A stretch of DNA of 21,039 bases, from positions 1-21,039 of IMG/VR virus record IMGVR_UViG_3300030389_002233. One strand, written 5' to 3'. Positions 1,418 to 19,937 of this stretch are shown here, in pieces. Every line of letters begins with the position of its first letter. Within the stretch, counting starts at the first letter, position 1. A program made the translations under genes and the position numbers. Origin of the DNA: a virus. The notes under the pieces are model-generated. The model was given only the letters and a program-made list of their open reading frames with translations, was not told the DNA's origin and did not search any database.

Positions 1418-2227
1418 TCAGTTCTCTATGAACAGCCCAACATTGTCGTCTTTGTCATCACCTGTATCACTAGCAAACACCCCAAGATTATAAGCAAAAA
1501 CAAATTTGTGCGCTGTGTTTGTTGCAAGACTCACAGTGAATTTCAGATAAATAAATTCATTGATAGCCAAACCAGTTGCCTCTGTACCTAAGTAATTTGT
1601 GCTGCTGACTTGTGCGATAATTTCTTCACCAGCATTAGGCAATGGATTGGATGTGCTTTGGAAAGTTGTTGCAATTGAATCTGCTGCACCTGTTTCATTG
1701 CTAGAGGTTGAGCTTCTTGAACGCCAATTGACACTACCAGTTCCCAGCGGATTGAAAGCGGTGCTAAATGTTCCCACTCCTCCCGCAGCAGGCAATGGAT
1801 CAACAGTTGGATCATTGCTAGGGGTATGATCGGGGGTCGTTGTAAATATACTTGTGTCTTCAGCGCCACCAGCGAAAACCACTGCGCTGGCTGTGTGAAT
1901 TTGTATTGCCCCAACACACAGATCATTATGAAAGGTACTGGTGTTATTTTGGCCTTTTACTGCGAGATAAAAAGTATGAGAAGCATTACTGCCAGAAGTG
2001 AATAGAATATCTTTCACCGAATAATTTTCGGTATTATCGTTGACCCCAAACATGGATAAATAATGTATGTTTGGGATCATAAACAGGGTGTTCAAACTAG
2101 ACATAGTATGCACATGATCACTATCAGATGTGCCAGACCGACTTACGCCAGCACCACCACCTCCACCACCGCCTGTAGCAGCAATTATTTTGCGAGGTGA
2201 TTTTAATTTTCCAACAGATAGCAACAT
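1418..2227 (-). CDS. Polyglycine tail/adhesin-like protein, paralogue 2
   Basis: A 269-residue protein. It has a short N-terminal segment (MLLSVGKLKSPRKIIAATG), then a glycine run (seven Gly, Ala, Gly at residues 19-27), then SRSGTSDSDHVHTMSSLNT and a Ser/Thr/Asn-rich beta-type body. It is clearly paralogous to the gene immediately upstream: shared blocks lie at about residues 28-54, 68-91, 101-119, 179-200 and 233-269, the last ending DTGDDKDDNVGLFIEN. The core at about 120-178 is divergent. The start ATG overlaps the upstream paralogue's stop as TAATG. Location just after the tail fibre suggests a virion surface protein, possibly a receptor-binding tip; I do not recognise a named family. 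The gene is visibly AT-richer than the head and ejection genes. The paralogy is certain; the role is inferred. Confidence 0.72.
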   Translation of the reverse strand: MLLSVGKLKSPRKIIAATGGGGGGGAGVSRSGTSDSDHVHTMSSLNTLFMIPNIHYLSMFGVNDNTENYSVKDILFTSGSNASHTFYLAVKGQNNTSTFHNDLCVGAIQIHTASAVVFAGGAEDTSIFTTTPDHTPSNDPTVDPLPAAGGVGTFSTAFNPLGTGSVNWRSRSSTSSNETGAADSIATTFQSTSNPLPNAGEEIIAQVSSTNYLGTEATGLAINEFIYLKFTVSLATNTAHKFVFAYNLGVFASDTGDDKDDNVGLFIEN

Positions 2228-3042
2228 TAGTTTTCTATGTACAATCCGACATTGTCGTCTTTGTCATCGCCAGTATCAGTTGACCTCACTCCAAAATTGT
2301 AAGCAAAAACAAACTTATGGGCTGCATTTGTTGCAAGGTCTGCAACAATCTTGAGGTATAGAAAATCATTCAACGACATAGGAGAACTAGTTTCAGTAAA
2401 TAAAAAATCTGTATCAGTGACTTGCGGAATAATTCCATCACCAGCCTCTGGCAATGGATTTGCAGTATTTTGAAAATCTGTAGATATAGAATCAGCAGCC
2501 CCGGTACGAGAGCTTGCAGTGCTACTTGCTATTTTCCATGTAGAAGCGCCAGTTGCTTGAGCTAAAGTTGTGTAAGTCTGTGAAGTTGGATCAGTAGAAG
2601 CAGTCTGTTCACTTGTACTAATGGCCGTGCCGTCAACCGTTGTAGTACTTGACCCAATTGCAAATAGTACCGCACTGCTTGAATGAATCTGTATTGCGCC
2701 AACACACAGATCATTATTAAAACTTGAAGGGTTAGGTTTTGCTTTTACAAAAAGATAGAACGTATGTGTAGCGTTACTACCAGATGTAAAATTAATATCT
2801 TTTACTGAATAATTTTCTAAATTGTCGTTAAAACCTGGCGATGTGCTAGAGGCTGGGTGATTTATATAAACTATATTTGGAATCATAAACAAAGTGTTCA
2901 AACTAGACATAGTATGAACATGGTTGCTGTCAGATGTTCCAGAGCGACTTATGCCACCGCCACCGCCACCACCGCCGCCAGCAGCAGCAATTACACGCCG
3001 TCGAGCGCTTAATATGCCTACGTTTCCAGGTCCTGCAAGCAT
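2227..3042 (-). CDS. Polyglycine tail/adhesin-like protein, paralogue 1
   Basis: A 271-residue protein starting MLAGPGNVGILSARRRVIAA, followed by nine consecutive glycines at residues 22-30 and then ISRSGTSDSNHVHTMSSLNT. The glycines use mixed GGC/GGT codons, so the run is held at protein level and is not a simple DNA slippage tract. The body is Ser/Thr/Asn-rich and ends DTGDDKDDNVGLYIEN. The ATG at 3042 was chosen because it overlaps the upstream TGA as TGATG, like other junctions here, and gives the same ML start as its paralogue; a TTG three bases earlier is less likely. Conserved flanks bracket a divergent core at about residues 129-179. By position it is probably a tail-tip or receptor-interacting protein. 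No catalytic motif is seen. Confidence 0.72.
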   Translation of the reverse strand: MLAGPGNVGILSARRRVIAAAGGGGGGGGGISRSGTSDSNHVHTMSSLNTLFMIPNIVYINHPASSTSPGFNDNLENYSVKDINFTSGSNATHTFYLFVKAKPNPSSFNNDLCVGAIQIHSSSAVLFAIGSSTTTVDGTAISTSEQTASTDPTSQTYTTLAQATGASTWKIASSTASSRTGAADSISTDFQNTANPLPEAGDGIIPQVTDTDFLFTETSSPMSLNDFLYLKIVADLATNAAHKFVFAYNFGVRSTDTGDDKDDNVGLYIEN

Positions 3043-3356
3043 CAAGACATCTCTGTCACAAAGACTGTGCCAGCTTCAGAGCTTTGAATAGCGGCGCATT
3101 TTTCACCAGCGGTTACTTTGAAATACTCCACTTGATTGGCTGGCATGAAGGGCAGTGAGGTTGTGGCTGTCGGCGCAGCCGCAAAGGTGATGTGACAATC
3201 TTTAGTTGCCACAATGCGAACCACTGTTGTGCCAGTTGCGAACGCATTGCTTGTGGCTGCGCTCGAGCCACTGGTCGTAATCGTTTGCGTTGTTCCAGGT
3301 GCAAGCGCCTGAATCGGGTGAAAGTTATCGCTGTCTATAGCAAGTGCGGTTGCCAT
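3042..3356 (-). CDS. Small beta-rich virion-associated protein, function unknown
   Basis: A 104-residue protein rich in Thr, Ala and Val, with phrases such as IQALAPGTTQTITTSGSSAA, VVRIVATKDCHITFAAAP and LPFMPANQVEYFKVTAGEKC. The alternating hydrophobic/polar pattern suggests a small beta-sandwich. I recognise this as a type of short protein seen among structural genes of marine phages, but not with a proven role. A good Shine-Dalgarno (AGGAG) lies about six bases before the ATG and overlaps the TAG stop of the tail-fibre gene. The stop overlaps the next gene's start as TGATG. Position between the tail fibre and the polyglycine paralogues makes a tail or decoration component plausible. No membrane segment or signal peptide is visible. 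Confidence 0.6.
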   Translation of the reverse strand: MATALAIDSDNFHPIQALAPGTTQTITTSGSSAATSNAFATGTTVVRIVATKDCHITFAAAPTATTSLPFMPANQVEYFKVTAGEKCAAIQSSEAGTVFVTEMS

Positions 3357-3365
3357 GATTTACTC

Positions 3366-4718
3366 CTATGTTTTGATAATGTAGTTCAAGATGATAGTCG
3401 GCTGCATATTATTGACAGCCGTGCCGGAGCCAGTAGAGCCTGATGTGCCTGTGACCGTGTAGGTTTGCGTAGTTGTGTTGTCACCATCATTATTTGAGGG
3501 ACGAGAGACAGTGTTATCGCCAGAATTAGTTGTCAATTTTGTAAAGGATGCTACGTAGGTTCCTGCACCATGCGAGTGTGACGGCAGGTGCGTGATTTGT
3601 AGGTCTTGCACCTCATCACCACCAGTATCGCCAAGCGTGGCTCCGGTAATCGGGTCATCAGAATTTGACTGCGACGAGGTGATTCTACTCGCCGCTGAAC
3701 CACCCATGTCATCCTTGCCGGCGGCTACACGGCCACGCAAGTCAGGCAGATTGAATGTGCTTGATCCATCCCCGGAGCCGTAGGTTGTCCCGATCGCTGT
3801 GAACAAACTAGAATAGGTGCTGCGCGAAACTGCTTGGCCGTATGCCAAGAGCCAGCCCGTTGGAGCAGATGTGCCTGCGAAGGGCATCACCATGCCAGAT
3901 GTAAAAGCTGCGTCCGAGCTTAGTTTCGCAGCGGTCACGGCTGAATCGGCGATCTGATCTGTCCCGACCGCGTTGTTCGCAATCGCCGCCTGCACCACCG
4001 CGTCGTCCGCAATTTGAGCTGAACCTACAGCATCATCAGCAATTTGCGCTGTGCCAACAGCATCGTCTGCAATCTTAGCTTGGTTCACAGCATCGTCTGC
4101 TAGGTCTGCCGTGGCTATGGTGCCATCGACAATTTTTGCCGATGTAACCGAGTTAGCAGCCAGCTTTGCAGATGTGACCGCCGAATCAACCAGGTTGCCG
4201 GTGTCTATGTCACCTGGGGATGTGCCGGTTGAGGACAGCACCGCGACCTCGCCGGATGATCCAAATCCTAAGAACTTGTTCGCGCGCGTGACAGAGTTGG
4301 GGATAGTCGTGGCCGCTGTGTCCGTATCAGGAAAAACTATAGACCGACCGATTTGCTCAGTTTGTTGCTGGGCGATCATCGTCAGCCGGTCAAGCGCATC
4401 TTCGTGGCTTGCGGCAGGAAACGGGTCGTTTGCCACGTAGTCCGTCGATTGTGTCACAGCAAGCTCACGCTTAATGACCACCGTCTCGCCGGCGGCCGGC
4501 GTGTTCCCGGTCGTAAATGTGACATTGCCACCAGAAGACGATCCAGCGCCGGAAACTGTGTAGTGTGTCGTCAGCGTCTTTGTCGTCTCAGTGCCGTCCG
4601 CAGCTCGGATGATGACCGTCAGATCCGCGTCAGCAAAAATCTTGAAGTTATAGGCGAAGACGGTCGTGCTGCCATTCGCACTAAAGCTGACCTTGTTACT
4701 GGTGGTGGATACTGTCAT
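3366..4718 (-). CDS. Tail fibre protein with T7-type N-terminal anchor, decapeptide repeats and tail-collar domain
   Basis: A 450-residue modular tail fibre. Residues 1-125 resemble the T7 gp17 N-terminal domain that attaches fibres to the tail (FSANGSTTVFAYNFKIF, then VIKRELAVTQSTDYVANDPF and SHEDALDRLTMIAQQQTEQI). Residues 178-267 are a shaft of nine ten-residue repeats with consensus DDAVGTAQIA. Residues 273-330 form a phage tail-collar domain (PFAGTSAPTGWLLAYGQ through STFNLPDLRGR). The end has an HSH metal-site-like motif (THLPSHSHG, residues 377-384) and the usual terminal phrase NNMQPTIILNYIIKT. It should form trimers and contribute to host attachment. Its start overlaps the stop of the 1032-residue ejection protein as ATGA. 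Confident for fibre; receptor specificity cannot be read. Confidence 0.9.
   Translation of the reverse strand: MTVSTTSNKVSFSANGSTTVFAYNFKIFADADLTVIIRAADGTETTKTLTTHYTVSGAGSSSGGNVTFTTGNTPAAGETVVIKRELAVTQSTDYVANDPFPAASHEDALDRLTMIAQQQTEQIGRSIVFPDTDTAATTIPNSVTRANKFLGFGSSGEVAVLSSTGTSPGDIDTGNLVDSAVTSAKLAANSVTSAKIVDGTIATADLADDAVNQAKIADDAVGTAQIADDAVGSAQIADDAVVQAAIANNAVGTDQIADSAVTAAKLSSDAAFTSGMVMPFAGTSAPTGWLLAYGQAVSRSTYSSLFTAIGTTYGSGDGSSTFNLPDLRGRVAAGKDDMGGSAASRITSSQSNSDDPITGATLGDTGGDEVQDLQITHLPSHSHGAGTYVASFTKLTTNSGDNTVSRPSNNDGDNTTTQTYTVTGTSGSTGSGTAVNNMQPTIILNYIIKT
3915..4187. repeat. Nine tandem 30-bp (10-residue) repeats in the tail-fibre shaft
   Basis: Within the tail-fibre gene, residues 178-267 repeat every ten residues without slippage: DSAVTSAKLA, ANSVTSAKIV, DGTIATADLA, DDAVNQAKIA, DDAVGTAQIA, DDAVGSAQIA, DDAVVQAAIA, NNAVGTDQIA, DSAVTAAKLS. 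At DNA level this is a degenerate 30-base repeat, with GCATCGTCTGC and GCAATTTG-like words recurring on the plus strand. Such repeats typically form a trimeric shaft, and copy number can change by recombination. Confidence 0.9.
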
Positions 4719-7700
4719 CGCATCATATCCCTTATGGTGTCGTTCTTCTGCTGCATGAGCTGGATGTAGTCCTCAGATGCGCTTTCGATCTCAGGCCCAA
4801 AGGTCGGATCGTTGAAGAGATCCTTGCGAGCCTGCTGCCTGGCAGCCGTCACTGCGCTCTGCAGCATGTCGATGCAGAGCTCTCGAGCCTCCTGGGCGTT
4901 GGTGCTTGGTGTCAGTGTCTTGTCGGCAACCTGGACATCCATGAGCGTTGTTGGCTGGCTGACCTCGTCATTCCAGATCTTAAATAGACGCTGGAAGTTA
5001 TCGTTCTCGACCACTTGCTCGATGTACTCGAGCGACCTGGCGCCGGCGTAGATATGAAACTGCTCGATCTCCTTGGGCTTGAGTCCGACCTTGATGCCGT
5101 TCTGTGAGTAGACATCTGGATGCTTGCCAGGGCCCCAGCGCAGCGTGATGAACATCTGATCGAGATCAAAAGCTCGCTGAGCTGCGTTCTCACCCTCGGC
5201 CGCGGGATTTGGCCCGATGGTGCTTGTGTAGATTGGACTTAGAAAGTCCGGCCCCAGGGCCGGTGACAGCATGACCTTTTGGCCCCAGAAGTTGCGCTTG
5301 GCTGGCAGCGTGTTGCTAAGCCAGGGCACCTGGCTCTTGAGTTGATCGATGACAGACCTAGCATCACGCACCAGCGGGTCTTGCAATTTCTCAGTCTGCG
5401 CCAAGACCCGTGGAACTAGCGAGCGCTGGAAGCTCTCTATCGTGCCGTTGGCGTATCGGCCAGGATCGTTGACGGTTGAGACTAAGTTTGCAAAACCCTG
5501 GAGAAACGTCTTGTTCGTCATGTTGTAAGACACGGCTCCGGTCGCTGCCATGAGCGCGCGCTCCCAGCTGGCGCCATCTAGGCTCGAGCTCATACCGAGC
5601 TCAGCTGCGTCAGCTGCCAGGCCAAGCACAGATGAAAACGGCTCAGCTCCTGCATAGCTCACATATTGGTCACCGACTCGGATCGAGTAAGGCTGCCAGC
5701 CAGTGCGGCGCAGAGCGGCCTTGAGCTCGGGGTCAGCTGGTCCGGCGCCGGTAATCTGACCGTTTGCCGCCATCATGCCGACCGTCATCATGGTCGCGCT
5801 GCCGACATAGATCCTGGTGCGCGCCATATCAGCTGCAGCCTTGTCAGCTGGTGATGCGCCAGGAGCCTTGCCACGTTTGATCGCTCTTGCGCTTTCTCCG
5901 TAGTAGAGGCCCAGCGGTGAGCGCTCGACCATCGCGTACTTCGCCGCGTTGTATGGTGTTTTAAAGAAGGGCAGAAAATATCTGACCAATGGGATCTTGC
6001 GGACCCCGTTCAGTGCTTTGCCGGCTGCATCCAGGTCAGTTTGTAAAGTCACATATTTAGCGTGAGCGTCAGCCTCTTTCAGAGCTGATGCCGGCGGGTC
6101 ATAGACAAACTCCGCGATCCTCGAGCTCAGCGCATCACCTGTCAGGCCCTCGCCCCTGGCTGTGCGATAGGCTTGCTGGTATAGGCTCATGCGCTGCGCA
6201 ACCACCTTGAAGAAGGTGTCTTCGAACTCAAGCATCTTGGTGGGAGCCCGGCCCAGGGTAAACACGTTGCCCAAGAAATCAGCCGTCACGCCAGCCATGC
6301 CCTGAGCCTCGAAGCCCTCAGCTGAGAAAGCTCTGACCGGGCGTGTCCCGCGCTGTCCGTCTATCTTCGATCCCAGGATAGGCGCCTCGCCTGTAGCAAA
6401 AGCCTTGCCTGATGCCGACCAGGCATCCTGCATGGCCATCATGGCGCCGAAGAGTTGGGCCTGGACCTCGCCAAAATAGACGCCGCCCTCGCCGCCCATA
6501 GCGCGCCTGGCGGTGCCTACGGTGGCAGCCATGCCTGTCTCGGCGACATGCGCGCCCATGATGAGGATGTTGCCGGCGTTGTTTTTAATATGCGTGATAG
6601 GGCTGCTGAGCAGGATGTTGATCCAGGCCTCGTAAAAAGCATCAGTGAATTTTTTGAACTTGCTGCCGGCCCTGGTAATCGCAGCGCGGTCTGCAACCGA
6701 GCCAGCCTCGAGATAGGCCTTGGCCATGAGCCGGACATCCTCAGAGCCACCATATTCCTCGAGCAGCGTCGTGATGTCAGCCGACCTGGTCTCTGCAGCA
6801 GCGCCAGCCTGGCCACCCCTGGCCGGGATCCGAAACTGACCAAGCGCCCTGGCAATCTCTGTCTGTGAGCCTTTGATCTGCAGCTGCAGCTGGGTGACCA
6901 GCTCGAGCTGCTCGCGGAAGCGCAGCGCGTCCTCGTCTGTGCCGGTCTCTGCCTTCTTGGCCAGCTCGTCCAGGTATTTGATCTCTGTGACTAGCAGATC
7001 CCTCGAGGCCAGCATCGTCTCTGCCAGGCCCAGGGGCTGCCCGTTGGGCCCTGTCATCTGAATGACCTGGCCACGCTTGCGGCCCAGAATGGCCTTCGAG
7101 AGCTTGTTGGCGTCCATCCCCAGGATGTCAGCCATCTGCCTGGTAGCCTCGGTGGTGATCTCGCCGCGCTTGGCCTCGTTAATCTGGCCCGAGTAAGTCG
7201 AGCTGATCGCCTGGATGGTGCTTAGCACCCGGCCCTCGTCAGGAATCTTTTCATCGCCCCTGGATCCGACAGCTCGGAAGTCGTCCAGCATCCCGTCTGG
7301 CTGGATCTCGACCTCACGGTCCACGCCCTCGATGACCATTTGAGCGCGCTCTTCATCTGCCAGCTTGGGCTTGTCGAATCTAAGGTTGGGCATCTCGCCC
7401 TCGGCCCTGAGATTTGGCAGGACGCTGCCTCGCTCATACGGCGCATAGACGCCGTCCTCGAAGGTCAGCTGCTCGCCCTCGACATCCGTGCGGCCACTGG
7501 TGTCCAGGTTGCCCCGGTTGGCCTGCATGTCATCGATCTTCTTGGCAGCTCCAGCAAAGGTGCCACTAAAGTCAAAGCCAATGGCACGCGCCAGGGCTTT
7601 GCTAATAGGCCCAGACATAGCCAGCTGGATCTCGTCCTGCTCGACCGTTTTGATAGGGGCTATGAGATCGAACTCACTGTCGGGGTCTTGGCTAAAATCA

Positions 7701-7813
7701 AAAGCGCTGGGATCAGGTTGCGTGAGCTCGGCGCCTGTTAGTGGCTCAAGGAGCCCACCCGCCAAGCCGACCTGATTCGCCAGCGCCTCTGGAGCGTTGG
7801 GATCAATCGACAT
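4715..7813 (-). CDS. Large internal virion / DNA-ejection protein with LPD38-like region
   Basis: A 1032-residue protein. The N-terminal third is acidic and helical. At residues 398-416 it has the phrase NILLSSPITHIKNNAGN followed by small-residue-rich, membrane-prone helices. At about residues 605-725 it carries the pattern I recognise as LPD38 of large polyvalent phage proteins: LVRYFLPFFKTPYNAAKYA, ERSPLGL, then RRTGWQPYSIRVGDQYVSY and EPFSSVLGLAAD. Small-residue helices at about 668-690 may insert into membrane. It lies at the T7 gp16 position, last of the ejection proteins before the fibre, so a role in forming the DNA translocation conduit is likely. No lytic transglycosylase motif is apparent, unlike T7 gp16. 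A clear Shine-Dalgarno is lacking. It is unusually rich in CAGCTG, CTCGAG and GAGCTC. Confidence 0.78.
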   Translation of the reverse strand: MSIDPNAPEALANQVGLAGGLLEPLTGAELTQPDPSAFDFSQDPDSEFDLIAPIKTVEQDEIQLAMSGPISKALARAIGFDFSGTFAGAAKKIDDMQANRGNLDTSGRTDVEGEQLTFEDGVYAPYERGSVLPNLRAEGEMPNLRFDKPKLADEERAQMVIEGVDREVEIQPDGMLDDFRAVGSRGDEKIPDEGRVLSTIQAISSTYSGQINEAKRGEITTEATRQMADILGMDANKLSKAILGRKRGQVIQMTGPNGQPLGLAETMLASRDLLVTEIKYLDELAKKAETGTDEDALRFREQLELVTQLQLQIKGSQTEIARALGQFRIPARGGQAGAAAETRSADITTLLEEYGGSEDVRLMAKAYLEAGSVADRAAITRAGSKFKKFTDAFYEAWINILLSSPITHIKNNAGNILIMGAHVAETGMAATVGTARRAMGGEGGVYFGEVQAQLFGAMMAMQDAWSASGKAFATGEAPILGSKIDGQRGTRPVRAFSAEGFEAQGMAGVTADFLGNVFTLGRAPTKMLEFEDTFFKVVAQRMSLYQQAYRTARGEGLTGDALSSRIAEFVYDPPASALKEADAHAKYVTLQTDLDAAGKALNGVRKIPLVRYFLPFFKTPYNAAKYAMVERSPLGLYYGESARAIKRGKAPGASPADKAAADMARTRIYVGSATMMTVGMMAANGQITGAGPADPELKAALRRTGWQPYSIRVGDQYVSYAGAEPFSSVLGLAADAAELGMSSSLDGASWERALMAATGAVSYNMTNKTFLQGFANLVSTVNDPGRYANGTIESFQRSLVPRVLAQTEKLQDPLVRDARSVIDQLKSQVPWLSNTLPAKRNFWGQKVMLSPALGPDFLSPIYTSTIGPNPAAEGENAAQRAFDLDQMFITLRWGPGKHPDVYSQNGIKVGLKPKEIEQFHIYAGARSLEYIEQVVENDNFQRLFKIWNDEVSQPTTLMDVQVADKTLTPSTNAQEARELCIDMLQSAVTAARQQARKDLFNDPTFGPEIESASEDYIQLMQQKNDTIRDMMR

Positions 7814-9245: not shown

Positions 9246-11083
9246 CAGCCCCGCTCCTCTATACGTTTCAAGCGATCCTGGGTTGTGCCGCCGCCTCCTC
9301 CAGTTATGTAGGACTTCAGTTTTTCGAGCAGGCTTTCATTGCTGTCTGTCTCATTAGGGCCGCCCTCGCCCCTCTCTGCGTTGGTATCTACGGCTGGCTC
9401 CAAAGCCCTTTGTCTCTCGCGCACTGCCTCCTGGATTAGCAGCAGGGTCTCGAACTCAAGAGCTTTTTGCAGCGGCGTTAGTTTATTAGATTCCGAAACA
9501 AGGATCCCGGCGTTCACGAGATCAACCTCGCTCCAGGTATTGAACTTTTTAAGTTTTTGAGCGTTGCCTGGATTGGTTTCTGCGATCAGATCCAGGACGG
9601 TTGAGCTCGGCGCCAGGAAGGTCAGCGACTGCGTTTTGGCATCGTTGAACATCCGCATCACCATTTTAAAGGCTTCTTTCGGCTCAAGAAGATCCTCCCG
9701 GCCGGTGTCATGGACGAGCTGGTGATAGGTGTCTATGGCATCAGCTCGCAGTTGCCCCATGAACTGTGGATCGAACGAGGAGCCGAAGTTGACGTCGCTG
9801 TCACCGATGGCGCTCCGCAGCAGCTTGTTGACCCGCTTGATCTCCATAGCGCGCGGGGTCTTGTCCATCAGGCCGTTGCTGTAGGCGTTGAGGCTCAGGA
9901 AGTCCTGAAGCTGGATATCGCCGTTGGGCCCGATATGGGTCAGCGCATCAGCCATCAGCTGATCGATGTCTTCCTGGTTTTCAGCCTGATCCAGCCTTGC
10001 GTAGAAGCCAGCCAGCGTGACCGTGTTTGTGGCAGCTGCGTCCTGGCCCAGGATAGCTTTCTCGAGCGCCGTCACCTGGGTATCGGTCAGGGTCCGCTTG
10101 CCCTGGTGCTCGATGACATCAAGCATAGTCGGCATCGCGGCGCCCTCGACGCCTTCACGAGATTGGCGCACCTGGGTCATCAGCTGGGCGAAGTTGGTGT
10201 CCTGTGTCTTTTTTAGCTCTCGAGCTGCTTGTGCGTCAGCCTTGGCGGCTTCTTGGTTGGCTGCGCGCCGCAGCTGGATTGCCAGGGTGTTGGTGCGGTT
10301 GATGAGCTGCTCGCGCCTTTCGGGCTTCATGTTTGGGAACTGCTTTGGATCCTGCAGCGTAATCAAAAAACTCTCAGCATCTTCTGCTGAGCGCCGGATA
10401 GCCACGCCGTTGAGGATACTCTGTGCGCCCAGGAAGTCGATGCGCTGCTCTGCAGTCTGCCTTCTCGAAGCGATGTCTGTCGCCTTGATATAGCCAGCGT
10501 CAGCCATCTCCTCGAAGATGCCAGCAACCTGGGAGCCGTCAGCTGCTGTGCCGCCAAAAAGCTCGACCCTGGCCGCATGAGCATCAGCTCGGCCACCTGT
10601 TGCGATGGTGTTGATACGTTCATCGATGCGCGTGTCGAAGCTCGCCATGTTCTGATCGATGCCGCGAAGGCGCGCATCTTTGAAGATGGTGACGCTCTTG
10701 TTGAGCGTGGCTGTGGCTGCGCTGCCCTTGAAGCGGCGCTGCACGACAGGGTCCTTGATGCCGCTGGTGATGGTTGCGATAGCGGCCGTCGTCTCTTGCT
10801 CATAGAGCCTTGGGACATCCGCAGGATTTGTATTGAGCGCCTGGATCTCGACGTTCCGTAATTTTTCAGCCAGCTGGTTTTCTGCGTTCTTGAGCTGACC
10901 GGCGCGCTCTGCTTTCAGAGACTGCTCGTACCAGGTCGAACCGACCCTCGCCGCAGTTTGCCCCAAATTGGCAAAAGCCTGGCTTTCGGCAGCCAGGGCG
11001 CCAGCATTGGCTCTGACATTCAGCTGACGTGCAGAGACCTCGGTGGTCCGCTTGCCCTGGGATTGATAGGTTGGAACCCTCAT
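9245..11083 (-). CDS. Internal virion protein, T7 gp15-like
   Basis: A 612-residue, almost wholly helical protein rich in Ala, Gln, Glu and Arg. The N-terminus (MRVPTYQSQGKRTTEVSARQ) and the following helices (ALAAESQAFANLGQTAARVG, WYEQSLKAERAGQLKNAENQ) are typical of gp15-like ejection proteins that line the internal core and enter the cell envelope during infection. Position after gp13-like and gp14-like genes and before two further large ejection proteins agrees with the T7 order. The last 45 residues are polar with a Gly run (SYITGGGGGTTQDRLKRIEE). No enzyme motif is seen. ATG at 11083 overlaps the upstream stop as ATGA. Family call rests on order, size and composition more than on specific motifs. 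Confidence 0.8.
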   Translation of the reverse strand: MRVPTYQSQGKRTTEVSARQLNVRANAGALAAESQAFANLGQTAARVGSTWYEQSLKAERAGQLKNAENQLAEKLRNVEIQALNTNPADVPRLYEQETTAAIATITSGIKDPVVQRRFKGSAATATLNKSVTIFKDARLRGIDQNMASFDTRIDERINTIATGGRADAHAARVELFGGTAADGSQVAGIFEEMADAGYIKATDIASRRQTAEQRIDFLGAQSILNGVAIRRSAEDAESFLITLQDPKQFPNMKPERREQLINRTNTLAIQLRRAANQEAAKADAQAARELKKTQDTNFAQLMTQVRQSREGVEGAAMPTMLDVIEHQGKRTLTDTQVTALEKAILGQDAAATNTVTLAGFYARLDQAENQEDIDQLMADALTHIGPNGDIQLQDFLSLNAYSNGLMDKTPRAMEIKRVNKLLRSAIGDSDVNFGSSFDPQFMGQLRADAIDTYHQLVHDTGREDLLEPKEAFKMVMRMFNDAKTQSLTFLAPSSTVLDLIAETNPGNAQKLKKFNTWSEVDLVNAGILVSESNKLTPLQKALEFETLLLIQEAVRERQRALEPAVDTNAERGEGGPNETDSNESLLEKLKSYITGGGGGTTQDRLKRIEERG

Positions 11084-11586
11084 GCCGTTGCCCTGATATA
11101 GCCGATGTTAGACGCACCAGCCAGAAGGCTGCTGCCGGCATTGATCGCCCCTGCCCGACGAGCTGCCCGGCCATACATCTGATTGAGCTGGGATGACATC
11201 CTGGACTGAACCGCGCTCTCTCGAGCCTGGGCAGCCCCGATGCTGGCGTTGTAGTCAGCTATGGCCAGCTCCTCCTCGGCCTCGGTCGCGTTTGCCAGGG
11301 CGACCTTGAGCGGGGTGCCGGTGTCAGCCATCCAGCCATTATATCGATTAGCCTGGGCGGTAGCGTCCTGCAGCCGCTGAAAGTCGTTGCGGAACTTGAT
11401 GGCCTCAAGATCTGCCGCCAGCCGGATCTGCTCAGCTTGCTGGTCAGCAGCCTTGGCGTTGCGTTCATCGATCTGGCCGTTGAAGTTGTAAGCAGCTTGC
11501 TGCGTCTTGCCGACTTGATATTGACCGTAAGCCTCGGCTGCCGTGCCGGCTGCTGCTGCTGCAAAAAGTGCTGTTTCAATGCCCAT
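11080..11586 (-). CDS. Internal virion protein, T7 gp14-like
   Basis: A 168-residue protein with a small-residue hydrophobic N-terminus (ALFAAAAAGTAAEAYGQYQV), a central helical region (YNFNGQIDERNAKAADQQAE, then AIKFRNDFQRLQDATAQANR), and a Gly/Ala-rich end (RRAGAINAGSSLLAGASNIG). This is the usual appearance of gp14-like ejection proteins, which are proposed to make a pore in the outer membrane for genome entry. Its length is slightly below T7 gp14. It overlaps the preceding gp13-like gene by 11 bases and the following gp15-like gene by an ATGA, so the three are likely made in fixed proportion from one message. Confident for role class; exact pore function is inferred from the family. Confidence 0.82.
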   Translation of the reverse strand: MGIETALFAAAAAGTAAEAYGQYQVGKTQQAAYNFNGQIDERNAKAADQQAEQIRLAADLEAIKFRNDFQRLQDATAQANRYNGWMADTGTPLKVALANATEAEEELAIADYNASIGAAQARESAVQSRMSSQLNQMYGRAARRAGAINAGSSLLAGASNIGYIRATA

Positions 11587-12022
11587 TTGGGAACCACGCT
11601 ACCCTGTAATAATCTGCGCCCTCGGGGCCATAGCGGCGCATCAGCCCCTCATTTACAAAGCCGAAAAACTCTGCAAACCGCAGAGCGCTCGGCCAGTCTG
11701 CCCTGCAAACCCCCTGGATGCGCCATAGGTCGTTTTCCAGGGCACAGCGGCGCATAGCGCCCCTGCAATATTTGATGACCTTCCTGGGCTTTCTGTGAAT
11801 ATCCTGGCTACCGATAAACCAAACCTCGCCAGTGCCAGGCCACATATCCACAATGCCTGTGCAAAACAGAACCTCGCCGTCATCAATGGCCGTAAAGGCC
11901 CAGCCAGGCTGCTCGAGACGGTGAGCATATTGCATCATATATCCGAGACGCTCTGCGCCAGCGTTGAGCTGGCCGGCCATCAGCTGCTCGAGATGAGCTG
12001 CCTCGTAATCGATAGCGTTCAT
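11576..12022 (-). CDS. T7 gp13-like internal virion protein with GNAT-like fold
   Basis: A 148-residue protein. The middle reads GWAFTAIDDGEVLFCTGIVD, then GTGEVWFIGSQDI, then a basic helix and WPSALRFAEFFGFVNEGLMR. That sequence of self/environment-sensing strands, a central strand and a late helix with FGF is characteristic of acetyltransferase-like (GNAT) folds found in gp13-type internal virion proteins of podoviruses. In T7 gp13 the protein is needed for assembly of infectious particles and no acetyltransferase activity is known. The canonical acetyl-CoA pyrophosphate loop is not evident here. It starts in an ATGA overlap with tail tubular protein B and precedes gp14- and gp15-like genes, which supports the assignment. 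An actual acetyltransferase is the less likely alternative. Confidence 0.68.
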   Translation of the reverse strand: MNAIDYEAAHLEQLMAGQLNAGAERLGYMMQYAHRLEQPGWAFTAIDDGEVLFCTGIVDMWPGTGEVWFIGSQDIHRKPRKVIKYCRGAMRRCALENDLWRIQGVCRADWPSALRFAEFFGFVNEGLMRRYGPEGADYYRVAWFPNGH

Positions 12023-14292
12023 TGGTCGAATGTTATGAGACGCGGCATGATCGAGAGGATTGTCATGGGCATCGCCTGGGACTGCTGCACAACAATAAAT
12101 CCGTCAGTATCGAAGCCGCCTCGAAACTCGACCTCCTTGTCACCTGTAAAAAGCGGCAAAGCAGAATCCATCGCATCAGATGAGGATCTGAACGGTATCC
12201 GATCGAGCTCGCTAGTCGAGCTGCCGACCTCCACGCCCACTGTGCGAAACAGCCTCAGCGTGACCTCATGGATGCGTTTGGTCTTTGCCTGGGACGTGCC
12301 TTCTGTGCCGCCGGCATCGATCCGCATGGTTTGCAGTGTCGAGGTGTAGCCAAGGCCGATGTGTACGTTGGTAGCAGAAAAGTCGAGCGTGACCTGTCCG
12401 CTGCTCACCACCTTGTCGGGGTGGGTAGCGCCATTTGCCACGATGCGGACTGTCTGCCCCTCGAGGTGATCCAGGCCGCTGATCGTCGTTGCGGCTGACC
12501 CGCTATAGGTCAGCCCCGAGTCAACAAAGTAGGCGTCAAGTTTATTGTCTCCGAAATCAAATAAATTAAAATATTCAACATATCTTTTAGTCGCTCCACC
12601 GATTGTCCTCTTCACGATCAGATAGGTTTGATCCTCATCCAGGGCGCCAGGTATCGTTGCCACGCTCTCCACATGAGCGAAGCTGTCAGATCCAAAGCTG
12701 CCGCCAAGCAAGTGCTCATGCCAGGCAATCACGTTCTCCTCGCGCCTGTAAGTCATACCGACGAACTTACCGTTCTCCAGGACGCACCAGACGACGTTGT
12801 CGGGTTCCTGCTGCAGCGCCATCGACTTGATACCGCTGGTCGTTATGTGCTCGGCCAGGAGCGTCATATCGGGCGCCTGATAGCTGTCTGTGTTCAGGTC
12901 GAAGACCAGCTCGCGCAGCTTGCGCCTGGCGCGCTGCACAAACAGCGTGACATTGGCCACTTGGACCGGCTGGATGTTGGCGGACCCATAGGTTGCCTGG
13001 CGCTTGACGACTGTGTTGGTTGGGCTCAGCGGCGCGTTTTCTGAGCTGGTGACAACAAACTCGCCGCCCGAGGTGCCGACCAGCAGAACCCGGCCGCTTT
13101 GCAGATACCGAATGACGTTCACCTGGTTTGATCCGAGCGTGTATATCAGCGCATCAGCTGCACTGACGCCGGCTGTGAAATCCTCAAAACTGCCGCCTAC
13201 TGAGAAAAATATTGTCTGCGGCTGCTCCGTTGTTGAAGCGAAAACAAGGCGCTGCTCGTAGAATGTCACTGCAGCTGGGTAGCCGGTCGTCGCAGAAAAA
13301 GCGCCAAGGGCAAAACTGCTGTCTGCCACCAGGTCGCCTGAGATCGTCACGCTCGAGCCAGCTGCCTCGTTTGTCAGATCTGCCACCGGAGACAGCAACA
13401 TCGTGTCCTCGGTGACCTGGACGATGATGGCGCCGCTCTCGTTGTTGTTACTTGTGCCGGCGCCCGAGACAGAGATCTTCATGCCGACAGCAAACCCCTC
13501 GGTCAGGAAATTGCCGGCGCTGTCCTGTATCCGGTCATTATGTTCGAGCCCTGTCGAAGACGGGTCGCCCTCATGGAAGCTCAGCGTCGTCGCTGTGTAG
13601 CTCGGCGCCAGCTCAGCCCGGCCGTCAGCTGTCTCCTGGACGGCAGCGGTGACAGATGTAGCTGAGCTGAAACTGGCAACCTTGGCAAAGCCGTGATGCA
13701 GCTTGACCAGGCGCCCGACATCTGTGCTGGCGAAGGTGCTGGCGCTTGCGGTGATGGTCACAGTGCCGGTGCGAGCTGAGGCTGTCAGCGTGGTGCTGGT
13801 CAGGTTGTCGTCCTGGAACGGGCCACGCTGAAAGTCCACAGCCGTGATCGTCCAGGCTGTATGGCTGGTGCGCGTGATCTTCCTGGGCGCATGGTTGGGA
13901 TGGACGACATACATCACGTCCGCAGATTGCGTGAACTTAATGTCCTCGAGCTCGGTGTGAAGGTAGGGCGTCGTTACCTCGACCGGGCTGCCGCTCGATA
14001 CAACCGTGCCGCCATCCTTATGGATTCTAAAATGTTGATCGCCAAACTCCAGGATGTAGGCTTGCTCGGTGTTGAACTCGAAAGGTATCAGCCGGACGTT
14101 GTGGGCGCTATTTTTGACCTCTCTTATAAATATTGTGCCTGGTCGGCGGCTTGCGCCACCATGCGGATGAACAACAAAATTCTGAAGCGTTTTGCATCCG
14201 TTAAAATATTTGGCGACATCTGTGCGCCCATCGAGGCGGGGGCTCAGCTCACCGGCCGTGAAGTTGCTAAAGCTCGGGGATGCCTTGGCCAT
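12019..14292 (-). CDS. Tail tubular protein B / tail nozzle (T7 gp12-like)
   Basis: A 757-residue protein with the standard N-terminus of podovirus nozzle proteins: SFSNFTAGELSPRLDGRTDV, YFNGCKTLQNFVVHPHGGAS, RRPGTIFIRE, then IPFEFNTEQAYILEFGDQ. Further family hallmarks are FYEQRLVFASTTEQPQTIFF and the long beta-rich C-terminal half. It should form the hexameric distal tail tube below the gp11-like adaptor. Its ATG overlaps the stop of tail tubular protein A as TGATG, and the following gp13-like gene overlaps as ATGA. Length is close to T7 gp12. No insertion with a depolymerase or carbohydrate-binding motif was recognised. Confidence 0.92.
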   Translation of the reverse strand: MAKASPSFSNFTAGELSPRLDGRTDVAKYFNGCKTLQNFVVHPHGGASRRPGTIFIREVKNSAHNVRLIPFEFNTEQAYILEFGDQHFRIHKDGGTVVSSGSPVEVTTPYLHTELEDIKFTQSADVMYVVHPNHAPRKITRTSHTAWTITAVDFQRGPFQDDNLTSTTLTASARTGTVTITASASTFASTDVGRLVKLHHGFAKVASFSSATSVTAAVQETADGRAELAPSYTATTLSFHEGDPSSTGLEHNDRIQDSAGNFLTEGFAVGMKISVSGAGTSNNNESGAIIVQVTEDTMLLSPVADLTNEAAGSSVTISGDLVADSSFALGAFSATTGYPAAVTFYEQRLVFASTTEQPQTIFFSVGGSFEDFTAGVSAADALIYTLGSNQVNVIRYLQSGRVLLVGTSGGEFVVTSSENAPLSPTNTVVKRQATYGSANIQPVQVANVTLFVQRARRKLRELVFDLNTDSYQAPDMTLLAEHITTSGIKSMALQQEPDNVVWCVLENGKFVGMTYRREENVIAWHEHLLGGSFGSDSFAHVESVATIPGALDEDQTYLIVKRTIGGATKRYVEYFNLFDFGDNKLDAYFVDSGLTYSGSAATTISGLDHLEGQTVRIVANGATHPDKVVSSGQVTLDFSATNVHIGLGYTSTLQTMRIDAGGTEGTSQAKTKRIHEVTLRLFRTVGVEVGSSTSELDRIPFRSSSDAMDSALPLFTGDKEVEFRGGFDTDGFIVVQQSQAMPMTILSIMPRLITFDQ

Positions 14293-14882
14293 CAGAGTCT
14301 CGCATTGATAAATGTATCAGCCGAGAAGTTTTGCGAGATGCTGGTGTCCGAGGTGTTGATCTGGTTGTCCTCGGTCGCATCCACGAAGCGAGCCTCCTTG
14401 AGTTTCTCCTGGTAGAACACATTCATATTGGCGCCCAGGGTGGCGCTGCCGACCAAGGGATAAGCCAGGTCAGCTGCCAGGGCGGCTGCTATGGTCTCGA
14501 TCAGCAGCGTGTCATAAGCATTGGGATCTTCGATCCGGCCGACATATTTGAGATTGATCGTGCTTTCGTCTGTCAGGATCTTGCGGCCCTCGACGCGAAA
14601 AATAATGTCGGGATCATCGAGGCTGAGGACGCGCAGACAAAATGGATCTGTCGGCAATGAAAACTGATTTGCAAACTCGAAAGCCGGCGTGGCTGTGTCT
14701 GCTGCCAGGCTGGTGCGCTGGATCAGGCTGTTCCAGGGGTGAGCTCGAAACACATAGTCGCGGATAAAGTCATAACGCTGATTGCAGATCCGCGCAGCCT
14801 TGCTGTCTTCAGTCAGGCTGATGATGTTCGACGCACCGATCTGGTTCAGCGCTGAGTTACAGATATCGACGACTGATGCCAT
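14292..14882 (-). CDS. Tail tubular protein A / head-tail adaptor (T7 gp11-like)
   Basis: A 196-residue protein beginning MASVVDICNSALNQIGASNI, followed by DSKAARICNQRYDFIRDYVF and HPWNSL. This is the typical N-terminal pattern of gp11-like adaptors that sit under the portal and bind the nozzle. The later part (YVGRIEDPNAYDTLLIETIA, then FYQEKLKEARFVDA) also fits. It is the first gene after the terminator that closes the capsid-decoration segment, and its leader contains only an AGGGG ribosome site with no visible promoter, so it probably depends on terminator read-through or a distant promoter. The stop overlaps the nozzle gene start as TGATG. Confidence 0.9.
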   Translation of the reverse strand: MASVVDICNSALNQIGASNIISLTEDSKAARICNQRYDFIRDYVFRAHPWNSLIQRTSLAADTATPAFEFANQFSLPTDPFCLRVLSLDDPDIIFRVEGRKILTDESTINLKYVGRIEDPNAYDTLLIETIAAALAADLAYPLVGSATLGANMNVFYQEKLKEARFVDATEDNQINTSDTSISQNFSADTFINARL

Positions 14883-17264: not shown

Positions 17265-17481
17265 TCTGTGCCATTTCCTCTAGCTGTTTATGGTCGCGCA
17301 GCATTGACTTGATGAACAGAACCACCGTGCGCTGCCCCTCACGGTAGGCTGTCTCGTTGGGATCCACAGAGAAGGTTGAAGAATGTTCACAAAACCTCAC
17401 GCCCAGATCCTCGAGGATCCGTTCCCCTTGAACTGACGTGAAGACCTCCTTGTAGAGCTCCCTGGTATCTTCCGGCGTCAT
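17257..17481 (-). CDS. Bbp19-like small phage protein
   Basis: A 74-residue protein: YKEVFTSVQGERILEDLGVR, then FCEHSSTFSVDPNETAYREG and QRTVVLFIKSMLRDH. The pattern of a short helix ending in VLxDL, a loop with DPxxTxxREGQR, and a following hydrophobic helix matches the small Bbp19 family of podoviruses related to Bordetella phage BPP-1, encoded between portal and scaffold genes. Its function is not established; a minor head-assembly role is likely from location. It begins in an ATGA overlap with the portal stop and runs eight bases into the scaffold gene. Family assignment is from memory of the motif. Confidence 0.72.
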   Translation of the reverse strand: MTPEDTRELYKEVFTSVQGERILEDLGVRFCEHSSTFSVDPNETAYREGQRTVVLFIKSMLRDHKQLEEMAQNE

Positions 17482-19082
17482 TGCTTGGTCGCCTCAATGA
17501 ACGGCGCTGCTGCCCCAGCTGCCTGGGCTTGCTCGGTCAGCTGCTGCTGCTGAGCCTGGGCTTGCTGTGCCTGGGCGCGCTGCTGGCGCTCGAGGGTGAC
17601 TTGCTGGTCGCCCTTGATGGCTGTGGCCGGGATCCCAAGCACCTTGATGATGTGCTTCGAGACGCCGTCTGTATCGATGTAATCCATGATGGACGGGTCG
17701 AGCTGGGTGAGCGGCATCATCAGCTCGAGCAGCCTGGTCAGCGCCTGGATGTCGCCCTGGCGCTGCGCTTTGGCTAGTGGGCTCACATATTCGATCTCGA
17801 TGTTTCTGTCGCGCATGAACTCCGGTGCCGGCGCAAAAGCCTTGTTTCTGGCCAGGATGTTGTATGTCCTGCTGATCAGCGGCTGCAGCAGCTCCGCCTG
17901 CATCCTGCCCATGACCGGGCCAAGCAGTCTCATCTTCTCCTCTGTCCTTTGGACCACCTCGGTGGCCGTCATCTGCGGTCCTTGGCCGAGGATTAGCTGA
18001 TCGACATAGAAGGCCGCCCTGATTGCCTGACGGCGCTGCTCCTCCATGTTGAGGCCCAGCGGGTTGTTGGCCCCGATGTTGAGCGGCTCGATGCGGTCGC
18101 GTGTCCCGCTGCGATAGAAGTTGAGGCCGCCTGGCACGGTCCTGACCGGCAGGATGAAGCCGTCGTCTGGCACCAGGAGCGGCGGATCCACCTGTTTCTG
18201 TGCGGCGCGGATCGTCACCTCGGACATCTTGTTCAGCATTTTGATGTCAGCCAGGGCTGTCATGCTCGGGCTGCGGCCGTATCCGATCTCGAAAGAGCTC
18301 TTGAGGAACCTGGGCGCCATGTAGGGGAACTCATCAAAGCCCCCTTCGCTGATGATGATCTTCTCCTCGGGATCCAGGTAGACCGACGCGATGGGCTTGT
18401 TCTGGCTGTTGACCTTGGTTACGTCCCGCTCGTCGCGCTTATAGACGGCGTGGATCAGGGTCATCATCTGGTAAGGATCCGTGTCGGCTTTTTTCAGCAT
18501 CTTCGGGCTGACATTCTCAGCTCCGAACCTGGCCATCACGGCCCTCGCCGGCATCTTGAATTTACGATAGACGGTATCGACGCGGCCGTTCTGGTCCTCT
18601 GACAGATAGCACTCGGAGATATGCCTGGTCGAAAAGCGCAGAGAGAAATCATCGTCTGCTTCAACAAACATGACAGCCGTGCCGAATGTAATCAGATCGT
18701 GGTACAGCTCGTGGATCTGCTCCTGGAAGTTGGAGCGGTTGAAGCTGTTATACATCACGTCTTCGACAGACTGCAGCCACTCCCTGGCTTCGTCATCGCC
18801 ATCGAGCTCGCGGTCGCCAAAGCTCAGCGAGAACCAGCTGGTCGAGGCGTTGGTCAGCATCCCGTGCAGCGAGGCGCTGAGCAGCTCGGCCGCATGGATG
18901 GCAGTGCCATCGAAGATCAGCTCGGAGCGCTTGTCGCCAGGAGATCTGACTTTCGTCACGTCTGCCTTGCGCGGCACGACATAGTCAGCGATCTCCTGCC
19001 AATGGCTTTCCCAGGTTTGGCGCTGGTTTTCCAGGCTGCCAAAGCGTTTCAGCAGCATGGCTGCGTTGTCATCCACGGCCAT
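17478..19082 (-). CDS. Portal / head-to-tail connecting protein
   Basis: A 534-residue protein of the podovirus head-to-tail connector family. Hallmarks are TWESHWQEIADYVVPRKADV near the start, ELIFDGTAIHAAELLSASLH at about 54-73, GMLTNASTSWFSLSF at about 74-88, then ITFGTAVMFVEADD and STRHISECYLSEDQNGRVDT. Twelve copies should form the DNA portal and bind terminase and the gp11-like adaptor. The C-terminus is Gln/Ala-rich (AQAQQAQAQQQQLTEQAQAA), plausibly the flexible or helical barrel end inside the capsid. The ATG is preceded by AGGGAG six bases away and lies one base after the upstream gene's TAA. Length is normal for the family. Confidence 0.95.
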   Translation of the reverse strand: MAVDDNAAMLLKRFGSLENQRQTWESHWQEIADYVVPRKADVTKVRSPGDKRSELIFDGTAIHAAELLSASLHGMLTNASTSWFSLSFGDRELDGDDEAREWLQSVEDVMYNSFNRSNFQEQIHELYHDLITFGTAVMFVEADDDFSLRFSTRHISECYLSEDQNGRVDTVYRKFKMPARAVMARFGAENVSPKMLKKADTDPYQMMTLIHAVYKRDERDVTKVNSQNKPIASVYLDPEEKIIISEGGFDEFPYMAPRFLKSSFEIGYGRSPSMTALADIKMLNKMSEVTIRAAQKQVDPPLLVPDDGFILPVRTVPGGLNFYRSGTRDRIEPLNIGANNPLGLNMEEQRRQAIRAAFYVDQLILGQGPQMTATEVVQRTEEKMRLLGPVMGRMQAELLQPLISRTYNILARNKAFAPAPEFMRDRNIEIEYVSPLAKAQRQGDIQALTRLLELMMPLTQLDPSIMDYIDTDGVSKHIIKVLGIPATAIKGDQQVTLERQQRAQAQQAQAQQQQLTEQAQAAGAAAPFIEATKQ

Positions 19083-19083
19083 G

Positions 19084-19692
19084 TTAGCTCCCTAGCAGCT
19101 GTTTCTTTTCTGTCGGTGCATCGCCCAGGACGCCGCGTGAGCTTGTCAGGATGCTCCTGGTACGTCTGCCCCGCATGTAGGGGCTTGCCCTACCCCTGGT
19201 AACGGCAGCCGTCTCTCTGGCGCTTCTGACAACAGATGCGGGTCTGATTGGGTCTGCCGCCGGCGCAGCCTGGCCGGAGGAGCCTGGCGCACCACTAACG
19301 GGAGATGAGGCCGGTGGGTTTGCCGGCGGCAGAGATGGTGCAGCAGCTGGCGAGGCCGTGCTGGGCTGTTCATCACTTCTTAGATCTGGGCCACCAGGCT
19401 CGCCCGGTTTTGGTGCGTTTGGATCATAGCCAGGCCGGCCTGAATAGACCCTGGCGCCCATTTTGTTCAGATTTATAACGCCGACCACCTGGCCGCGCTC
19501 GTCCCTGACTGCTTCACCGCCGAGCTCCAGGCCTCGTATGATATTGCGGCGGTTCATGTCGCCCAGGCCGCCCATGAGGCCGCCCAACAATCCAGGCAAG
19601 CGATTTGCCTCAGCTGTGCGCTGTCTGGACTGGACCTGGGCGATGGCTGCGCGGTTATCGCGGCCGCTGTCTTCTGCTACCGGGCCGCCCAT
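19084..19692 (-). CDS. Hypothetical protein with disordered Pro/Ala/Ser linker and TSxRGVLxDAP C-terminal motif
   Basis: A 202-residue protein of unknown function. Residues 1-60 are helical and Gly-rich (RLPGLLGGLMGGLGDMNRRN). Residues 60-85 contain a short possible strand pair (GQVVGVINLNKMGARVYSG). Residues 90-155 are a low-complexity Pro/Ala/Ser/Gly linker, likely disordered. The C-terminus is basic and ends with RSILTSSRGVLGDAP (179-193) then KKQLLGS. The same motif ends the preceding small protein, so the two proteins may bind the same partner. The TGATG overlap upstream and single-base spacing to the portal gene place it in the packaging-head operon. Similar short motif proteins occur beside terminase/portal genes in other phages, without known role. 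Confidence 0.7.
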   Translation of the reverse strand: MGGPVAEDSGRDNRAAIAQVQSRQRTAEANRLPGLLGGLMGGLGDMNRRNIIRGLELGGEAVRDERGQVVGVINLNKMGARVYSGRPGYDPNAPKPGEPGGPDLRSDEQPSTASPAAAPSLPPANPPASSPVSGAPGSSGQAAPAADPIRPASVVRSARETAAVTRGRASPYMRGRRTRSILTSSRGVLGDAPTEKKQLLGS

Positions 19693-19937
19693 CAGCTGGT
19701 CTCCTTGTTTTTCGCCTTGCCCATCAGGCTGGCATATTCCAGGGGTGCATCCTCAAGAACGCCGCGCGCACTGGTCTTGATGGTCTTACGCCGGCTCACA
19801 GTCTTCGGATCCCTTGCCTTGCGCTTTACAGCCTCGCTCGGATCACTCGGGCGCACGACGGGCGCAGGAACCACAGGCGGTGGAGGCGGCGGAGGCGGCG
19901 CCGGAGGCACCGCAACCTTTGGTCTTAAAATGCTCAT
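19692..19937 (-). CDS. Small proline-rich protein with TSxRGVLxDAP motif
   Basis: An 81-residue protein: MSILRPKVAV, then a polyproline stretch with eight consecutive prolines (residues 14-21), then a basic helix (EAVKRKARDPKTVSRR) and KTIKTSARGVLEDAP (51-65). The arrangement of a short N-terminal anchor, polyproline spacer and basic I-x-T-S-x-R-G-V motif recurs in small phage proteins near terminase and portal genes; no function is established to my knowledge. The ATG overlaps the terminase stop as ATGA and the stop overlaps the next gene as TGATG. A run of eight prolines should slow ribosomes unless EF-P acts. Its position hints at a packaging accessory or minor head role, which is inference. 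Confidence 0.72.
   Translation of the reverse strand: MSILRPKVAVPPAPPPPPPPPVVPAPVVRPSDPSEAVKRKARDPKTVSRRKTIKTSARGVLEDAPLEYASLMGKAKNKETS

Follow-up and report, generated by a model that had tools for sequence, protein, structure and literature searches.

A C-terminal tag shared by two small proteins encoded ahead of the portal gene

Two neighboring genes and the question they raise

Why should two small proteins encoded side by side, directly ahead of a portal gene, end in the same short sequence? The question is raised by the virus record IMGVR_UViG_3300030389_002233, of which positions 1 to 21,039 (21,039 bases) are here called the window. The two genes, A and B, lie on the minus strand in the order TerL (cut by the edge of the window), A, B, portal, Bbp19-like protein, scaffold-position protein and major capsid protein, followed by the adaptor, nozzle, gp13-position, gp14-position and large internal virion proteins (Table 1). 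Both genes start within the end of the gene before them, A in TerL and B in A. Family matches assigned both TerL and the portal, in agreement with the first-pass annotation, which had placed A and B between terminase and portal. On its sequence matches, the tail and ejection-protein set of the window is T7-like. The portal type also matches 230 phage records, including those of epsilon15, BPP-1 and pelagiphages.

Table 1. Coordinates and family matches of the window features discussed in the text.
Feature	Position	Strand	Evidence or remark
Gene A, 81 aa	19692..19937	-	ORF; begins MSILRPKV, then poly-Pro run
Gene B, 202 aa	19084..19692	-	ORF
C-terminal tag of A, residues 51-73, KTIKTSARGVLEDAPLEYASLMG	19719..19787	-	
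C-terminal tag of B, residues 179-202, RSILTSSRGVLGDAPTEKKQLLGS	19087..19158	-	Very end of protein
Portal (head-tail connector), directly downstream of B	17478..19082	-	phrog_332 E=1.8e-158; PF12236 E=5.6e-154
Bbp19-like protein, after portal		-	PF25181
Scaffold-position protein		-	phrog_3742 and phrog_458
Major capsid protein		-	PF19821
Adaptor-type tail protein, T7 gp11 position	14292..14882	-	phrog_394 E=1.8e-50
Nozzle-type tail protein, T7 gp12 position	12019..14292	-	phrog_376 E=6.5e-227
Internal virion protein, T7 gp13 position	11576..12022	-	phrog_4177 E=9.8e-21; phrog_308 E=1.4e-10 (phrog_308 matches in T7 too)
Internal virion protein, T7 gp14 position	11080..11586	-	phrog_418 E=8.8e-7
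Large internal virion protein	4715..7813	-	phrog_6651 E=1.2e-44

A and B share a C-terminal module

The module common to A and B consists of a basic stretch followed by the pattern T-I-x-T-x-x-x-G-V-x-x-x-A-P-x5-L-h-G. The peptides from which a shared C-terminal motif had been proposed, KTIKTSARGVLEDAP in A (residues 51-65, 19743-19787) and RSILTSSRGVLGDAP in B (residues 179-193, 19114-19158), are exact in sequence and place and are preceded in both proteins by Pro-rich and basic stretches, as had been described. The likeness extends past these peptides to SLMG in A and QLLG in B, beyond which the chain continues for eight more residues in A and one more in B. The endings of the tag differ (Y-x-S/T-L-L-G in A, K-x-L-L-G in B). 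In the AlphaFold model of B (mean pLDDT 61.4), helices and strands occupy residues 9-85 of a structured portion spanning approximately residues 1-95, and disorder is predicted after about residue 100, tag included.

Pro, Ala and basic residues abound in both proteins, a composition that would favor a chance likeness between two low-complexity proteins. However, none of 20,000 shuffles (maximum 47) reached the BLOSUM62 local score of 66 obtained with the last 35 residues of A and B, and none of 5,000 (maximum 66) reached the score of 107 for the whole proteins, to which proline-rich matches contribute. Further, profile-profile comparison of 22 A-type with 20 B-type proteins returned 97.3% and E=2.1e-11, with only 33 C-terminal columns aligned. 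These tests support the shared motif and, together with the recurrence described below and the absence of any off-target ORF at E<=1, refute chance likeness, which we regard as practically excluded.

A is a phrog_831 relative and B shares its end

A scan of the whole PHROGs library matched A (E=4.8e-4) and B (E=0.11) to phrog_831, a phage family of 70 aa annotated without function. When the window DNA was searched with this family, just two places matched, A (E=9.9e-6) and B (E=2.9e-5). As a control for the E<=1 setting of the DNA search, 4 of 14 well-known genomes matched at this threshold and none at E<=0.001, so that weak phrog_831 matches mean little. The single-gene type represented by epsilon15 gp3 aligned with A over 69 columns starting at residue 1 (98.2%, E=3.6e-14) and with B over the last 27 columns only (96.3%, E=1.5e-9); alignment to phrog_831 over the whole family length was obtained for A and not for B. 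Thus, A is a whole-family relative, whereas B shares the end and is otherwise a different protein. The earlier description of the pair as otherwise different proteins has to be amended for A, a near full-length relative of a known family.

Searches of 50,697 phage records by tblastn with A and with B returned nothing at E<=10, hence the need for profiles. At the protein level, phrog_831 matched epsilon15 gp3, Carin1 gp47, Ab31 ORF03 (whose best family is phrog_4893), a 66-residue protein of Bolivar, and gp60 and gp59 of HTVC203P. Matches at the DNA level were Tyrion gp04, both Lederberg genes and BPP-1 Bbp22, the last with E=2.1e-6 (0.0086 for the protein alone). The family was absent at E<=1 from 6 of 17 records (phiVC8, ZP6, Hodr, CKB-S2, Mel-JY33 and T7), yet all of these except T7 have a portal of the window's type. 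Phages of this family (epsilon15 gp3, Tyrion gp04, Carin1 gp47) resemble the window in carrying the C-terminal module on a small basic protein whose gene lies upstream of the portal, but they have one such gene at the portal whereas the window has two, with an unrelated body in B. Similarly, Bbp22 of BPP-1 carries the tag at its very end and is encoded directly before the portal Bbp21; unlike A and B, it has a Gln-rich, coiled-coil-like body and is the only tagged gene.

The tag recurs ahead of portal genes

From 598 confirmed portal relatives in viral contigs we kept 80 loci and analyzed 72, the other 8 having little or no upstream sequence; the counts below refer to the 53 of the 72 loci that extend 1,300 bases or more upstream of the portal. 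The 6,499 six-frame ORFs of the loci and the window were searched with a model of 35 tags, taken from 28 prophage ORFs and 7 isolate-phage proteins. None of the model tags came from the clade of the window; the prophage ORFs, however, had been chosen with models that included clade members. A tagged ORF lay just upstream of the portal in all 53 loci at E<=1 and in 48 at E<=0.001, although the loci are related, some nearly identical, and do not represent 53 independent events. At E<=1 there was one tagged ORF in 13 loci, two in 39 and three in one (L035), and at E<=0.001 two tagged ORFs were detected in 23 of the 48 tag-positive loci. No other ORF among the 6,499 reached E<=1, and five reached E<=10.

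The 13 one-tag loci are of several kinds. In four (L018, L024, L074 and L077) the second gene bears a weaker tag, in three (L012, L013 and L017) the second gene retains only ILMGG, and one (L076) is cut upstream. The remaining five (L029, L034, L045, L049 and L057) have only an A-type gene, also across contigs of 10.9-30 kb, which are possibly fragments. In L035, the three tagged genes (462-1680) stand in a row ahead of the portal.

The tie to the portal is also seen from the side of the family. At E<=1e-5, phrog_831 was present in 26 of 385 genomes in the class of a Sphingomonas bin and in 1 of 369 in the class of a Caldimonas strain, the latter being the starting genome only. Regions around these 27 genomes and two more were fetched via the family alone, and 28 of the 29 contained a portal of the window's family, directly downstream and on the same strand in 21 and 1.8-5.5 kb further in 7. 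The stretch examined in the remaining region (L252) has no portal, and terminase parts adjoin the tag gene. A Sphingomonas prophage (L257) carries two tandem tagged genes ahead of the portal and provides a second case of a pair. Thus, phages and prophages of several lineages carry the motif, and the objection that it might not recur falls away.

Two copies are relocated. In vir555, the phrog_831 gene has the nozzle gene (phrog_376) on one side and the gene of an internal virion protein (phrog_418) on the other. The matching gene of Stenotrophomonas phage BUCT708 (9059-9340; phrog_831 E=5.4e-5) encodes a protein ending in NTSGQKTLLGG and also lies between the nozzle and phrog_418 genes, with one extra small gene on each side. 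A tag model named A4 does not detect it, and its N-terminal part matches phrog_418 weakly (E=4.8e-4). The vir555 protein had no relative in a scan of viral contigs. Though few, the two relocated copies point at the tail and core module, rather than the terminase or capsid, as the probable setting of the tag.

The tag is retained while B bodies change

Among 40 paired loci, 39 had B bodies of sufficient length for comparison. By blastp at E<=1e-3 these fell into nine groups with no link between them (18, 12, 2 and 2 members and five singles), some of which may be remotely related because low-complexity filtering was on. The bodies include Lys/Val-rich, Ala-rich, Pro-rich and Asp/Gly-rich forms, and the tag is retained across all nine groups. 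Such retention is what would be expected of a docking element and agrees to this extent with the docking to a common partner suggested in the first-pass annotation. Among six close relatives, pN/pS was 0.28 both in the tag and in the rest, the tag being no more constrained. Synonymous divergence (pS) in these relatives, measured over few sites, was lower in the tag than outside it in either gene, at 0.25 vs 0.44 for A and 0.29 vs 0.43 for B.

Covariation between the tags was considered as a sign of a common partner. In a partial Mantel test given portal distance, the A tag correlated with the B tag (r=0.27, p=0.005; 21 non-redundant of 41 pairs). The A tag covaried with the B body as well (r=0.32, p=0.0005), and linkage explains both correlations; covariation was therefore rejected as evidence. 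Comparison of the nozzle, gp14-type and gp13-type families over 20 records pointed to no particular partner: phages without a detected tag had lower nozzle scores, but their gp14-type scores were lower too.

Comparison with T7 and proposed function

In T7, genes 6.7 and 7.3 precede portal gene 8. According to the cryo-EM account of this phage, gp6.7 (residues 2-15, 12 copies) wraps the portal barrel, and the gp7.3 C-terminus (residues 84-98, six copies) anchors at the nozzle/adaptor junction and places K84 and K85 on the DNA end (PMC11784390). The same source describes both proteins as ejected, gp7.3 as essential for assembly and a gp6.7 mutant as ejecting less well (PMC11784390). A and B follow this layout, as small genes placed directly before the portal in a genome with T7-like adaptor, nozzle and internal virion proteins. 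A is like gp6.7 (phrog_1391; DUF5476 in some records) in gene position and, by eye, its R-P-K-V start resembles the S-P-K-I / S-P-K-x-K start of gp6.7, which unlike A has no tag by phrog_831 or A4. B is like gp7.3 (phrog_1320) in gene position and, again by eye, in the layout of basic residues followed by a C-terminal end piece, which in gp7.3 is the anchored part (PMC11784390).

Profile tests of homology to these T7 proteins were negative, and we claim no membership. With a single T7 sequence on one side, which makes such tests insensitive, profile A1 and the single-gene type gave probabilities of 0.3% and 6.8% (over 8 columns) against gp6.7, and profile A2 gave 12.5% against gp7.3 through a weak match in the body rather than the tag. 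The whole-library scan matched neither A to phrog_1391 nor B to phrog_1320. A strong match to T7 protein 6.7 was dismissed as circular because the T7 sequence itself was inside alignment A5; the comparison without it was negative. PDB searches with epsilon15 gp3, Carin1 gp47 and profiles A1 and A2 returned weak matches only (best E 0.02 to 1.5), which we took as chance, and A4 returned none at E<=10. The A2 matches included a T7 protein 7.3 chain (E=0.96, profile positions 5-82 of 119) and a phage chain named gp20 (23sg_m; E=0.8, positions 43-95), both with the tag outside the matched part.

By analogy with T7, we propose with moderate confidence that A and B, both small and largely disordered, are virion components of a T7-like machine for DNA delivery, anchored by their tags in the channel formed by portal, adaptor and nozzle. 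We infer the channel site from the gene neighborhood and from T7. The tag would hold both proteins on the inner wall of this channel, with the basic stretch ahead of it in contact with the DNA end, and the protein-specific job would fall to the variable body, which differs by lineage. A may link the portal and the ejection core, like T7 gp6.7, and B may form a lining of the tail channel and assist nozzle docking, like T7 gp7.3. The nozzle or adaptor is the candidate partner of the tag, and the portal, named earlier as one option, is a possible one. The other two partners suggested at that time, capsid and terminase, are disfavored by the position of the relocated copies between nozzle and gp14-like internal virion protein, and by the location of the T7 proteins of matching gene position on the portal barrel and at the nozzle/adaptor junction (PMC11784390).

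Anchoring in the channel is favored by the recurrence at portal loci, the portal tie seen from the family side, the relocated copies, the window's tail and core set, the gene position in T7 and the turnover of B bodies. Against it stand the lack of homology to the T7 proteins and of a PDB relative in the searches above, the 6 of 17 records without phrog_831, the several lineages with a single tagged gene, a pN/pS in the tag equal to that of the rest and a total of only two known relocated copies.

Other explanations of the shared end

Internal proteins of phage T4 carry capsid-targeting sequences, and the tag could be a head-loading signal resembling these, but C-terminal. It would bind portal or scaffold in the procapsid, causing the ejected proteins to be packaged, and would have no role in the finished tail. 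A sorting tag would indeed be expected on two or three proteins of one phage whose bodies are unlike, as is the case here, and the tagged genes do lie beside the portal. The relocated copies, however, neighbor the nozzle and an internal virion protein rather than scaffold or portal, making a head-loading signal unlikely; furthermore, the T7 gp7.3 C-terminus is seen in the finished tail (PMC11784390). The tag might also reflect plain descent, if B arose by duplication of A or by fusion to the end of A and each protein kept the tag separately, for different partners. The family-type character of A over its whole length, the restriction of B's likeness to the end and the divergence of the two tags in their last part all fit such an origin. 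Yet a partner-free relic would not be expected to outlast the wholesale change of B bodies, and we consider descent of this kind decidedly unlikely. A packaging accessory, in which the tag would bind terminase and the proteins would aid DNA packaging or its termination, fits the overlap of A with the end of TerL and the terminase genes that adjoin the tagged gene in L252 and in a prophage where the portal is distant (L258). We judge it very unlikely given that the gene lies in the cluster of nozzle and internal virion protein genes in vir555 and BUCT708 and that 21 of 29 prophage regions have the portal immediately after it.

Implications and related observations

Channel anchoring of A and B, if correct, may extend beyond the window. 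It is possible, although we put it forward only tentatively, that many lineages of short-tailed phages share a C-terminal channel-anchoring code, in which a tag of approximately 25 residues would hold a protein for early ejection while bodies are swapped, duplicated or triplicated. Phrog_831 proteins and tagged B proteins would then be the gp6.7/gp7.3 counterparts outside the T7 group, and in some lineages these or neighboring ejection proteins could be modified by a GNAT- or HlyC-type acyltransferase whose gene lies between the tagged ones. If this is true, a searchable tag would find gp6.7/gp7.3 counterparts in epsilon15-like, BPP-1-like and pelagiphage-like phages and in many alphaproteobacterial prophages, the function-less family phrog_831 would gain a testable job, and a short sequence for possibly directing proteins to the DNA channel of the virion would be at hand.

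A related proposal exists for Vibrio phage Peru-2, whose p2_32, compared here by its published description, is like A and B a small gene before the portal. In their report, the authors liken p2_32 to T7 6.7/7.3, describe its low abundance in virions by mass spectrometry and call gp6.7/gp7.3 counterparts hard to name in their phage and in ICP3 (PMC13320782). The general idea that small pre-portal ORFs act like gp6.7/gp7.3 is therefore already in print (PMC13320782). To this we add a portable C-terminal tag that two or more proteins of one phage share and that is spread over lineages, together with the turnover of the bodies fused to it and its relocated copies; a search of the open-access literature found no description of the tag.

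Several additional observations concern genes ahead of the portal. In the T7-group cyanophage P-SSP7, the protein encoded directly before the T7-like portal (L122:1905-2186) has an A-like MC..PKPP start (MCIFRAPKPPEPPAP) without the L-L-G end and perhaps provides a link. Acyltransferase-type genes lie between A and B in several lineages: a GNAT gene above the PF00583 cut-off (L039:2096-2512), two weak GNAT matches just below the cut-off (L074:3387-3878 and L080:1822-2226) and an HlyC-type lysine acyltransferase (L078:1119-1568; PF02794 E=2.1e-21). A further locus listed with genes of this type is L094 (23628-24092). In BPP-1, the GNAT gene Bbp24 is two genes ahead of Bbp22, and in SP6 an annotated acetyltransferase precedes the pre-portal gene. 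T7 gp7, at the acyltransferase place, has no Pfam match.

Elsewhere in the window, two adjoining similar proteins of 269 and 272 aa (1418-2227 and 2227-3045), encoded near the tail-fibre genes, each carry a poly-Gly run followed by SRSGTSDS(D/N)HVHTMSSLNTLFMIPNI and look like tandem paralogues. A protein of 450 aa (3366-4718) shows, by eye, IADDAVG(T/S)AQ-type repeats ahead of a collar-like C-terminal part.
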